DNA of 64,000 nucleotides, taken from positions 62,001-126,000 of the forward strand of contig NZ_DRFV01000015.1 of the NCBI RefSeq assembly GCF_011050365.1, read 5' to 3'. Made by a program: the position numbers and the translations under genes. The notes under the pieces are model-generated. The model was not told the DNA's origin. It ran no database searches and saw only the letters and a program-made list of their open reading frames with translations. Source of the stretch: Pseudohongiella sp. GTDB taxonomy: Bacteria; Pseudomonadota; Gammaproteobacteria; Pseudomonadales; Pseudohongiellaceae. This document shows, piece after piece, positions 34,629 to 41,675 of this stretch; positions within the stretch are counted from its first letter, which is position 1, and each line of letters begins with the position of its first letter.

Positions 34629-35011
34629 GGACAAATTCCTCCAAAACAGTCTTAAGCAAGATCCGGTCAGTTGTGTCTGATGCAATGCGCTGCCATTTAA
34701 AAACGCACGACAGGGTCGGTCACCGCAGGCATCAAACCTTGACCCCCTACCCTAGGCTGAATCGGCGGCAGAAGCAAACCGCTCAACCACAGCAAAGGCC
34801 AGCCGACGTTTGGGGGTAGCTGTGTAAAGGATCTGTGCAAAGGTTCTGTGTAAAGGACGAACAAGGGCTATCCCCGGGATTTAGCATGCCGTACCCGGTC
34901 TGCTCCGGTTAAATCATCATCGTATTCTGGAACGCGGTGAGGCTGATGCCTTTGTGAACGCCAAGCTGTATGCTTTAATGAAGATCTTACCGGACCCGTT
35001 TCCAGCAGGGC
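34629..35011. other. 383-base intergenic region with a tandem repeat
   Basis: This stretch separates the divergent gabD-like and TonB-like-anchor genes. No convincing ORF or RNA gene is visible. It must hold both promoters. The one structured element is the 13-bp triplicate at 34820-34858. Confidence 0.6.
34820..34858. repeat. Three tandem 13-bp repeats
   Basis: Units CTGTGTAAAGGAT, CTGTGCAAAGGTT and CTGTGTAAAGGAC lie head to tail with no gap. They could be repeated protein-binding sites for the divergent promoters, or a chance slippage expansion. Confidence 0.8.
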
Positions 35012-39860: not shown

Positions 39861-40118
39861 CTACAGTCGATCATTGCTGTCAGTCCGGGCCGGATCGGGC
39901 TTTGTGCCGGATCCGGCCAGGCGGCGAAATATGGATTGGCGCACCGTCTTCAACAGCAGTATACGAATTGAATAGGCCAACACCAGCCCCATCACAATGG
40001 AGAACAACATACCCAGGCCGACACGGAACATCAGTGCGGTAAAGAATGCGGTCATGCCTGCGGTGGCTATTTCTTCAAGATGATCTTTGATCCAGAGCCA
40101 TGATTGCTGATTTGCCAT
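39861..40118 (-). CDS. Small membrane protein, function unknown
   Basis: This 85-residue protein is started at ATG 40118 (MANQQSWLWIKDHLEEI). One long hydrophobic region (about residues 20-55, TAFFTALMFRVGLGMLFSIVMGLVLAYSIRILL) would span the membrane once or twice, and the tail is basic then polar. The open frame extends to 40292 but that upstream part is Pro/Arg-rich and not convincing. It is upstream of the dynamin-like gene on the same strand and could belong to that transcript, 135 bases apart. Confidence 0.6.
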   Translation of the reverse strand: MANQQSWLWIKDHLEEIATAGMTAFFTALMFRVGLGMLFSIVMGLVLAYSIRILLLKTVRQSIFRRLAGSGTKPDPARTDSNDRL

Positions 40119-40284
40119 AACAGATAGTGCCTGCTCGTTCCCGGTGAATATAACGTTGAGTATCCCATATCTGGCGCATATCTGCATTGAAGGCCGGAAG
40201 CTGATGGGGGCTGGCGGGTTCAGTACGAGATACTGCCCTTTGTGAGGTCTTGTCAGGGAGCATCGCAAGCTCAGACGGCTTGGC

Positions 40285-40314
40285 GTTGGCATGACTGCCG
40301 GAGACTTCGATAAA
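40285..40314 (-). repeat. Truncated third copy of the 191-bp tRNA-linked repeat
   Basis: About 30 bases (TTGGCATGACTGCCGGAGAC and following) repeat the first part of the two full units. Similarity fades left of about 40285, which marks the distal end of the array. Confidence 0.85.
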
Positions 40315-40505
40315 TGGCGGAGGGGCAGGATTGATTTAACAGCTTTTTGGGCTGTTAAACCCTTCGGGCTTCGCGCTGGCGCGCTCGTCTCAACTTGCTA
40401 TGCAAGTTGTCGAACCCTGTAACGGGTTCACATCCCTGCCCGCTTCGAACGGTTGGGGATTCTATTGGAGTTGGGGTTGGCATGACTGCCAGAGACTTCG
40501 ATAAA
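40315..40505 (-). repeat. 191-bp repeat unit 2 downstream of tRNA-Ser
   Basis: This unit matches unit 1 along its full 191 bases, with only a handful of substitutions. Its distal end on the minus strand (40315-40333) again carries the tRNA 3' terminal sequence TGCCCCTCCGCCA, including CCA. It contains GAACCC/GGGTTC, CAACTTG/CAAGTTG and TTTAACAGC/GCTGTTAAA hairpins. It begins directly after the tRNA-tail copy of unit 1. Confidence 0.93.
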
Positions 40506-40696
40506 TGGCGGAGGGGCAGGATTGATTTAACAGCCTTTTGGGCTGTTAAACCCTTCGGGCTTCGCGCTGACGCGCTCGTCTCAACTTGCTGCACAAGTTG
40601 TCGAACCCTGTAACGGGTTCACATCCCTGCCCGCTTCGAACGGTTGGGGATTCTATTAGAGTTGGGGGTGGCATGACTGCCGGAGACTTCGATAAA
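40506..40696 (-). repeat. 191-bp repeat unit 1 directly after tRNA-Ser
   Basis: The unit begins at the base after the tRNA CCA and ends with a copy of about 18 bases of the tRNA 3' end (40506-40524; one base shorter than the tRNA within the CCC run). Hairpins visible are GAACCC/GGGTTC (40603-40620), CAACTTG/CAAGTTG (40582-40600) and TTTAACAGCC/GGCTGTTAAA (40526-40550). The layout, tRNA then repeats that each end in a partial tRNA tail, matches that known for E. coli tyrT, whose 178-bp repeats yield rtT RNA. An untranslated RNA product is inferred. Confidence 0.93.
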
Positions 40697-40787
40697 TGGC
40701 GGAGGGGCAGGGATTCGAACCCTGGGTAGGTTATTAGCCTACGCCGGTTTTCAAGACCGGTGCATTCAACCGCTCTGCCACCCCTCC
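40697..40787 (-). tRNA. tRNA-Ser (UGA anticodon)
   Basis: The minus strand folds as a serine tRNA: acceptor GGAGGGG/CCCCTCC, D arm from GCAGAGCGGTTGAATGC, anticodon stem CCGGT/ACCGG around loop CTTGAAA with anticodon TGA, a long variable arm (TAGG/CCTA), and T arm CAGGG-TTCGAAT-CCCTG. Discriminator G and an encoded CCA follow (40697-40700), for 91 bases in all. It reads UCA and related serine codons. The 3' end is duplicated in the downstream repeats. Confidence 0.97.
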
Positions 40788-40957
40788 GCAGCGCGAAGCG
40801 GCATGTTACTATAATTTTGTCATCAGTCAACTATTGATTGCCAGGCTGGCGACAACCGGCGCATCTTCGTCCGATATTCATTGATTTCGCCGGGCTGACC
40901 GGTATGATTATGGCTTGAAAGATTACGGTGACGTTACCGATCTTTATCACAGAAGAT

Positions 40958-40979
40958 GTAACACCCATCCGGGTGTTAC
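40958..40979 (+). promoter_or_regulatory. Stem-loop in the leader of yccA
   Basis: GTAACACCC-ATCC-GGGTGTTAC is a perfect 9-bp stem with a 4-base loop ending 13 bases before the GGAGG ribosome site of yccA. No T run follows, so it is not a standard terminator; it may affect mRNA stability or translation. Confidence 0.6.
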
Positions 40980-41006
40980 TGGATGTTTAGCCGGAGGTTT
41001 ACCTGT

Positions 41007-41675
41007 ATGAGTCAGTACCAAGTCAATGCCACGCGGACCGGCGAGTCTGCGGTTGTAGTTAACAAGGTTCTCAAGAACACCTATCTGTTACTGGCATTAA
41101 CGCTGGCATTCAGCGCCTTGACTGCAAGCTTAGCCATGGCCAGCAACGCAGCACCCGTCAACATCTTTGTGATGCTGATCGGCTTTTATGGTCTGTTGTT
41201 CGCTACCCACAAGCTGGCGAACAGCGCCTGGGGTCTGCTAGCTGTGTTCGCCCTCACCGGTTTCATGGGTTACACTCTGGGACCGATTCTCAGTTATTAC
41301 ATGGCGACCTCAAATGGTAGCCAGCTGGTAATGACAGCGCTGGGCGGCACCGCATTCATATTCTTTGGCCTTTCCGGCTATGCTCTGGTGTCGCGCAAGG
41401 ACTTCTCCTTCCTCAGCGGCTTCATGATGGCCGGTTTTCTGGTTATCGTAGCGGCATTTATCGCCAATCTGTTTCTGCAGATTCCTGCGCTGCAACTGGC
41501 GTTGTCAGCTGCGTTCATGCTGTTCTCCAGTGCAGCAATCCTGATGCAGACGGGTGCGATCATCAACGGTGGCGAGCGCAATTACATTCTGGCTACGGTC
41601 ACGCTGTATGTGTCGTTATACAATATCTTCATCAGCCTGCTGAACCTGCTGACGGCGTTTGGCGGCGAAGAGTAA
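41007..41675 (+). CDS. yccA: Bax inhibitor-1/YccA-family inner-membrane protein
   Basis: This 222-residue protein has seven hydrophobic segments and family marks such as NKVLKNTYLLLALTLAFSALTA near the N terminus, FALTGFMGYTLGPI, and LYVSLYNIFISLLNLLTAFGG at the end with the Asp/Tyr-type pore region altered to YVSLYN. E. coli YccA is a substrate and modulator of FtsH; others in the superfamily are calcium-leak channels. The start at 41007 follows GGAGG at 40993-40997; the frame opens at 40983. Its place before tusDCBE is common in gammaproteobacteria. Confidence 0.93.
   Translation: MSQYQVNATRTGESAVVVNKVLKNTYLLLALTLAFSALTASLAMASNAAPVNIFVMLIGFYGLLFATHKLANSAWGLLAVFALTGFMGYTLGPILSYYMATSNGSQLVMTALGGTAFIFFGLSGYALVSRKDFSFLSGFMMAGFLVIVAAFIANLFLQIPALQLALSAAFMLFSSAAILMQTGAIINGGERNYILATVTLYVSLYNIFISLLNLLTAFGGEE

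Follow-up and report, generated by a model that had tools for sequence, protein, structure and literature searches.

The analyzed window, a 64,000-nucleotide stretch of a Pseudohongiella sp. contig (NZ_DRFV01000015.1), contains a tandem array on its minus strand behind a serine tRNA gene. This gene, tRNA-Ser(TGA), is the sole tRNA reported by ARAGORN within the window and is followed without a gap by the array, the first base of unit 1 coming directly after the encoded CCA on the same strand. We consider the units likely tRNA-linked repeats (TLRs), and the locus comprises the following features.

40697..40787, minus strand: tRNA-Ser(TGA), CCA encoded (ARAGORN; Rfam tRNA model, 60.2 bits at 40700-40787)
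40506..40696, minus strand: TLR unit 1, 191 nt (TRF and repeat finder; RtT match of 27.8 bits, model positions 1-130)
40615..40632, minus strand: inverted T-arm of unit 1 (GGGCAGGGATGTGAACCC), complementary to the tRNA T-arm at 16/18 bases (inverted repeat I3)
40601..40608, minus strand: copy of the T-arm 5' half in unit 1 (GGGTTCGA; sequence reading)
40523..40600, minus strand: core of unit 1, 78 nt, four hairpins, between GGGTTCGA and the T-loop ATCC (R1 match 40519-40607)
40506..40522, minus strand: copy of the T-arm/acceptor 3' half with CCA in unit 1 (sequence reading)
40315..40505, minus strand: TLR unit 2, 191 nt, 96% identical to unit 1 (TRF and repeat finder; RtT match of 29.6 bits, model positions 1-130)
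40424..40441, minus strand: inverted T-arm of unit 2 (inverted repeat I2)
40410..40417, minus strand: copy of the T-arm 5' half in unit 2 (sequence reading)
40332..40409, minus strand: core of unit 2, 78 nt (R1 match 40328-40416)
40315..40331, minus strand: copy of the T-arm/acceptor 3' half with CCA in unit 2 (sequence reading)
40280..40314, minus strand: third unit, beginning only, spacer followed by divergence (third copy of the 50-nt junction)

TRF placed the array at 40280-40711 (period 191, matches 95%, score 801), and a repeat finder returned two 191-nt copies that are 96% alike together with a 50-nt junction occurring three times at spacings of 191 and 191. The tail copies thus end at 40697, 40506 and 40315 with a period of 191, exactly as a preliminary description of this DNA had placed them. 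That description also credited each copy with about 18 bases of the tRNA 3' end; 15 contiguous bases are indeed common to both, and 18 are reached with a one-base gap (AATCC-TGCCCCTCCGCCA vs AATCCCTGCCCCTCCGCCA). TLRs are recognized by 18–19 bp identical to the gene's 3' end, which the window units nearly attain (15 contiguous, 18 gapped), and the copy number of two units plus a partial third lies within the TLR range of one to five. Unit 1, minus its last base, folds at a z-score of -4.2 (200 shuffles), and the search of related genomes that the preliminary description had proposed returned DNA similar to the unit in 17 of the 37 genomes searched, the own genome counted; the array is therefore not a product of chance.

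Read on the minus strand, unit 1 consists of a 64-nt spacer, an inverted T-arm, six bases, a T-arm 5' half, the core, and a 3' half ending in CCA. This order of parts places the core at the point at which the copied T-arm would close its T-loop. The inverted T-arm copy is present in each window unit (16/18 bases) and was absent from the preliminary description. The consensus core has four hairpins, variable ones at both ends, a GCGC hairpin, and a constant CCC-loop-GGG hairpin. The R1 model scores unit 1 at 102.2 bits and unit 2 at 102.3 bits, both units being themselves included in R1. As read from the sequence, each unit is a composite of outer arms that correspond to the tRNA and an exchangeable four-hairpin core inserted between GGTTCGA and ATCC. 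A listed open reading frame at 39861-40292 (minus strand) opens within the partial third unit, its true start probably being a later ATG near 40119. Elsewhere in the window, a 13-bp tandem repeat of 2.9 copies lies at 34820-34857 (CTGTGTAAAGGAT).

Three lines of evidence identify the units as probable TLRs homologous to E. coli rtT: their position, tail copy and tandem period; the end-to-end alignment of the Rfam RtT model; and the identical layout of the E. coli tyrT locus. In a permissive search, RtT (RF00391) aligned to both units over model positions 1-130, at scores (29.6 and 27.8 bits) that lie under the 45-bit gathering score, so that the units are not RF00391 members by Rfam's rule despite the end-to-end alignment. 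The arrangement at tyrT, where rtT/RttR resides, is the same as in the window: a spacer, an inverted arm with a GGATGAGAA-like junction, GGTTCGA, and then hairpins, including one with GCCCGAAGGG or a similar sequence, before an AATCC tail and CCA. The window units differ from rtT in falling below the Rfam cut-off, in following a tRNA-Ser rather than a tRNA-Tyr, in the sequence of the variable hairpins, and in lacking the tpr frame. RtT matches above the cut-off in other genomes also stand behind Ser and Gln tRNAs. The likeness to tyrT drawn in the preliminary description is accordingly stronger than was claimed, and its statement that the repeat sequence is unrelated to rtT is contradicted by the alignment and the shared arrangement. 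Among the weak Rfam matches, RtT was the only one to run end to end at the five loci tried, except at tRNA-Ser(GCT) (L023), where none was listed. Weak matches to sX4, RNAI, C4, istR, Leu_leader, mascRNA, and Plastid-psbl-rps4 were taken as tRNA overlap or chance. No Rfam family besides tRNA reached its cut-off in the window, and readings as a group II intron or an integron attC site were rejected on that basis.

The preliminary description had further seen in each unit a short basic reading frame reminiscent of Tpr, which is not supported: both window units read ATGTGA at that place, and several relatives have no ATG there. The E. coli tpr start is an ATG inside the inverted-arm motif GGATGAGAA, and in the window units no ATG in this motif opens a basic frame. 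The basic stretch noted earlier is the translation of the GCGC and CCCGAAGGG hairpins. This comparison suggests that the window frame and the E. coli tpr frame are both by-products, and from the class-wide set described below the annotated E. coli gene tpr may be a by-product.

TLRs themselves are a known kind of element. Stenum et al. 2021 (PMC8144298) describe 22 TLRs at ten E. coli loci, with one to five copies per locus and a function not known, date their first description to 1978, and cite Egan and Landy 1978, Rudd 1999, and Bosl and Kersten 1991 and 1994. RtT has been reported from Pasteurellaceae by Rossi et al. 2016 (PMC4986893), who also mention ‘many other tRNA operons’. Other papers list it among RNAs raised at low temperature in Thioalkalivibrio (PMC8092127), liken some enteric attenuators to rtT (a 2010 study, PMC2965389), and count rttR among REP-bearing sRNAs (a 2025 study, PMC12306157). 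A literature search with older subscription papers outside its scope found no earlier description of TLRs in this part of the class and no published survey of RtT across tRNA genes; as older literature lay outside the search, we do not claim the T-loop anatomy as a first.

E. coli K-12 TLRs, including rrA/rrB/rrF, resemble the window units in standing directly behind a tRNA or rRNA gene whose 3' end they copy. Among ten E. coli tRNA/5S genes inspected, the tail copy is complete (18/18) at argV, argZ, argQ, and lysV and partial at rrfB (13/18), and a GCCC-loop-GGG hairpin precedes each of these tail copies. No tail copy was found within 420 nt of glnX, proM, argX, or leuV, nor within 60 nt of glnV. 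By eye, rrfB has all four hairpins, in the same order as in the window core, whereas the arg units have the last three and miss the first. The window and its relatives differ from the E. coli TLRs in their Ser and Phe tRNAs, in a clear inverted T-arm where argV/Z/Q and rrfB have none, and in an RNA product that is putative here; lysV does carry the inverted T-arm (by eye). Judged by eye, the missing inverted arm of the arg and 5S TLRs and the missing first hairpin of the arg units count against our account. The window's candidate RNA shares an origin in a tRNA trailer with the sponge RNA 3'ETS-leuZ and differs in that no tail copy or repeat is described for the latter in the consulted part of PMC8144298, the comparison being one of descriptions only.

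TLR-like sequences occur across the class. RF00391 matched at E ≤ 0.1 in at least 74/274 class genomes, at least 18 of them with a match over the cut-off, and at E ≤ 0.01 in at least 48/398 phylum genomes; these counts are low because only the best 8 or 11 candidates were scored per genome. The R1 model matched at E ≤ 0.01 in 52/274 class genomes. Among 14 control genomes, RF00391 was positive only in E. coli. A single family from another class of the phylum (f212) contributed 24 of the 48 positive phylum genomes. For genomic context, 134 RtT matches were taken among the matches listed, leaving out 16 listed ones with E above 0.0125, and context was obtained for 133 of them, each unit of a tandem being counted separately and one match coming from the own genome. 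A tRNA or tmRNA gene lies upstream on the same strand within 700 nt in 107/133 cases and farther away in one, and the tail copy agrees with the upstream gene at ≥12/14 bases in 87 of the 108 matches with any upstream tRNA. The remaining 25/133 have no upstream tRNA in the stretch taken, which counts against our account. The 107 upstream genes comprise Ser (55: GGA 20, GCT 17, CGA 9, TGA 9), Gln (30), Tyr (9), Arg (5), Glu (3), Pro (2), Val (1), Thr (1), and tmRNA (1); the tail is mismatched in one Pro case and in one Glu case. The tmRNA case (L092, G084:C182) is a TLR directly behind the gene, with a tail copying the tmRNA 3' end.

Searching genome contigs for the exact core pattern returned 49 stretches. 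Named carriers are Pseudohongiella, Microbulbifer, Litorivivens, Neptuniibacter, Alteromonas sediminis, and a Cellvibrionaceae isolate; exact cores also occur in MAGs called SAR86 and Rhodoferax and in other gammaproteobacteria. Exact cores number 56. Upstream of 37 of them, a tRNA stands within 700 nt (23 Phe, 11 Ser, two Met, and one Leu), as it does for none of the other 19; the two Met and one Leu neighbors are probably coincidental, as the tails do not match. The preliminary description would have been undone by a dispersed mobile repeat unrelated to tRNAs, and with an upstream tRNA or tmRNA at 107/133 RtT matches and a tRNA near 37/56 exact cores the unit is not of that kind.

The core is maintained as a fold. 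In an alignment of 39 cores, mostly from the genus, 95.5% of cells pair, and at 19/24 pairs at least one row shows changes on both sides; double-change cells number 157, vs 41.4 after shuffling and 12–32 with partners slid. This pattern argues that the core hairpins covary strongly, the fold being kept through paired changes. Of 79 class cores, 60 fold better on the tRNA-sense strand than on the complementary one and 19 fold worse (p = 2.5e-7), a bias that may have been favored by finding the class set with an RNA model; among 12 genus cores, the sense strand folds better in six and the complement in six, so that selection may act on the RNA or on the DNA. Fold z-scores fall below -2 in 47/79 class cores (mononucleotide shuffles).

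Arms and cores follow different partners. For this comparison, 13/133 units could not be split, and 83 of the other 120 were kept as non-redundant with a tRNA. Across these 83 elements, the inverted arm matches its own tRNA at 7.76 of 10 bases, vs 6.39 with shuffled tRNAs, a value that none of 2000 shuffles reached. Core identity within a genome is 0.690, vs 0.633 when shuffled (0/1000 reach), and core identity within a tRNA type is 0.632 both observed and shuffled (477/1000 reach). By these values, arms go with the tRNA and cores with the genome, the genome effect being modest and kinship being ignored in the statistics. Corrected for base composition, excess core identity amounts to 0.157 for pairs of the same genome and different amino acid (31 pairs), 0.217 for the same amino acid (9 pairs), and 0.118 between genomes (400 sampled pairs).

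Individual loci illustrate how cores may be exchanged. In G051, in a family search that covered this genome alone, the cores behind tRNA-Gln(TTG) and tRNA-Val(GAC) share 95% identity. The Ser(CGA) unit has the same first 50 core bases as the Gln unit and a different last hairpin, so that the T-loop was not where this exchange ended. Every inverted arm of these Gln, Val, and Ser units matches its own tRNA. On contig C59 of this genome (L309), a core with a Ser-like tail at position 1505 stands in front of tRNA-Ser(CGA) rather than behind a called tRNA; it was found by a 54-base match, and its first 50 core bases are those of the Gln and Ser units. In Pseudohongiella sp. O18 (L045), neighboring units behind tRNA-Ser(GGA) are 91% alike in their left parts and 100% in their tails, vs 63% in their cores, the second core having a different sequence and a similar fold; here one core has been replaced while the arms stayed shared. 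In these two genomes, cores can thus be swapped at boundaries that lie in the T-loop, although one of the two boundaries may fall elsewhere. Together, the comparisons suggest that TLRs are built from an exchangeable hairpin core set between arms tailored to the host tRNA.

The genome of the window carries sister arrays. Diverged units of 189 bp stand behind tRNA-Ser(GGA), three in number, the third with two head-to-tail cores, and two diverged units of 190 bp stand behind tRNA-Ser(GCT); both sets carry an exact 18-base copy of their own tRNA tail. Head-to-tail double cores within one split T-loop occur at L021 and L022, with a period of about 80 bp and joined via ATTACTA. A further unit lies behind a bare tRNA-Phe tail (L022, G000:C2:16000-18200), apart from the tRNA-Phe gene (L349, G000:C11), whose 3' neighbor is a frame that we take to be a tyrosine integrase; gene and TLR are separated as if an island had inserted between them. 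Bare tRNA tails likewise precede TLRs at L033, L048, and L066. Another core lies just in front of tRNA-Arg(TCG), in an apparent broken tRNA-Arg 3' half. Halves from the 3' side of tRNA-Phe or tRNA-Arg, starting near the anticodon loop with a core directly interrupting the T-loop, were seen at L264, L265, L298, and L299 and, in the own genome, at L236; their lack of a spacer or inverted arm perhaps reflects a deletion between two GGTTCGA copies. An own-genome R1 match at C1:101317 (E = 7e-4) was rejected for lying in an apparent ABC-transporter frame. In the same genome, the tRNA 3' end and flank are repeated 98 nt downstream of tRNA-Leu(CAA) (L373) and 236 nt downstream of tRNA-Met (L355) without a TLR core, the tRNA-Met repeat enclosing a long hairpin (by eye).

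Within the genus, all 15 genomes searched gave R1 matches with an E-value of 0.01 or less, not all of them strong, and Phe and Arg loci are frequent among the TLR-bearing tRNAs. G001, of the same genus, retains core matches at four tRNA-Arg loci; its Ser(TGA) unit has decayed, with most of the core deleted, and no unit was recognised there behind Ser(GCT) and Phe. Several of these TLRs having been lost or broken in one species of the genus, they are dispensable. An examinable locus was available for 30/38 tRNA places in G001 and 30/36 in the own genome.

We propose that the array would be transcribed as a trailer of the tRNA and that enzymes of tRNA 3' maturation would cut it into one structured small RNA per unit, its end mimicking the tRNA 3' end. 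Unequal recombination between tail copies would generate the tandem copies, and the T-loop sequence, being nearly universal, may be the site at which recombination or template switching spreads cores or homogenizes them. Taken as a whole, this account of the window units as TLRs homologous to rtT is in our judgment likely to be right. The class-wide set separates the tRNA-like arms from the exchangeable core and makes questions of TLR function testable. It also demonstrates that the RtT model from Rfam picks up units of this type behind many tRNAs as well as one tmRNA.

The core data could alternatively describe a bacterial counterpart of SINEs, a non-autonomous mobile element whose core enters the T-loops of tRNA genes as DNA or RNA, with the insertion itself creating the tailored arms and any host function incidental. 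Such insertion would fit the occurrence, within one genome, of nearly identical cores (or parts of them) after different tRNAs, with arms that differ and yet match, as it would the head-to-tail double cores in one T-loop at two own-genome loci and, by eye, the long palindrome formed by the tRNA-Phe end, the spacer-terminator, and the inverted arm, as if from a fold-back copy. However, among the 56 exact cores none was established as lying clearly away from tRNA pieces: by eye, 16 of the 19 tRNA-less ones sit at a contig end or beside a visible tRNA 3' piece, the exceptions being two at L256 and one at L296. The exact core is absent from viral contigs, and phage and plasmid collections contained no DNA like the window unit, absences on which a phage, plasmid, or viral origin was also rejected. 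No empty site was found either. A recent insertion was sought in G001, where the Ser(TGA) place holds the decayed, core-deleted unit and the Ser(GCT) and Phe places none. The core data are equally well accounted for if TLRs already in place swap their cores. We regard this mobile-element reading as tentative and rather unlikely. An origin as remnants of integrative elements that use the tRNA end as attachment site would account for the direct copies of the tRNA 3' end and for islands using the same places. The 191-bp unit is, however, too small for an integrase, an inverted T-arm is foreign to attachment duplication, and plain core-less tail duplications exist in the own genome and look different; already disfavored because the core, which is conserved, covaries, this origin has next to no credence with us.

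If TLRs do act on their host tRNA, they might serve as a strand-swap switch, in which the T-arm and acceptor 3' half of the tRNA are drawn into a long duplex with the inverted arm, the tail copy substitutes on the acceptor 5' strand, and the tRNA is held back or destroyed. In 70/83 loci, the predicted lowest-energy fold has the first unit pairing with the 3' half of the tRNA as well as with its acceptor 5' strand, compared with 59/249 with mismatched units, a figure not independent of the arm matching since any matched inverted arm would give the swap. The mean predicted gain is -9.7 kcal/mol vs -3.6 for mismatched units, with -9.8 at the window (where the inverted arm and the tail copy are predicted to take part in the pairing), -12.0 at tyrV, -13.3 at tyrT, and -25.7 to -30.3 at three tRNA-Phe loci of the genus. 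Where the unit tail differs from the tRNA (n = 21), the better fit to the tRNA is that of the inverted arm in 11 cases and that of the tail in three, the other seven being ties, though some of these tails belong to decayed last units. These are thermodynamic predictions that ignore modified bases, whereas the tRNA folds first during transcription; moreover, the own-genome Ser(GGA) and Ser(GCT) loci and E. coli lysV swap the acceptor strand only, and argV neither. We consider such a switch quite unlikely, and a broader version decidedly so, in which TLRs would be class-wide strand-swap cassettes on selected tRNAs, locking the 3' half, supplying a substitute end, and setting the timing through a covarying core passed on at the T-loop. 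The predicted alternative pre-tRNA fold can be probed in E. coli K-12. By analogy with the TLRs behind three E. coli rRNA operons, the product could also be a small regulatory RNA that sequesters Hfq or CsrA. RrA/B/F bind both proteins according to Stenum et al. 2021 (PMC8144298), and by eye the hairpin order of the window core is that of rrB, but the same paper reports CsrB-family predictor values < 0.01 for 19 tRNA-operon TLRs, and we judge such a role very unlikely for the window units.

No terminator-like site was found behind the window array in the scanned stretch 39900-41100, which counts against our account. So does the position of the tRNA-Phe and tRNA-Arg units of the genus, which lie beyond a terminator (by eye) and so may be transcribed little. 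Terminator-like hairpins flank units on both sides at tRNA-Arg loci (L238, L239, L247, L250), at a tRNA-Phe locus (L060), and at E. coli lysV (L233), because the hairpin is part of the repeat, and this arrangement recalls the dual terminators of E. coli rRNA operons.
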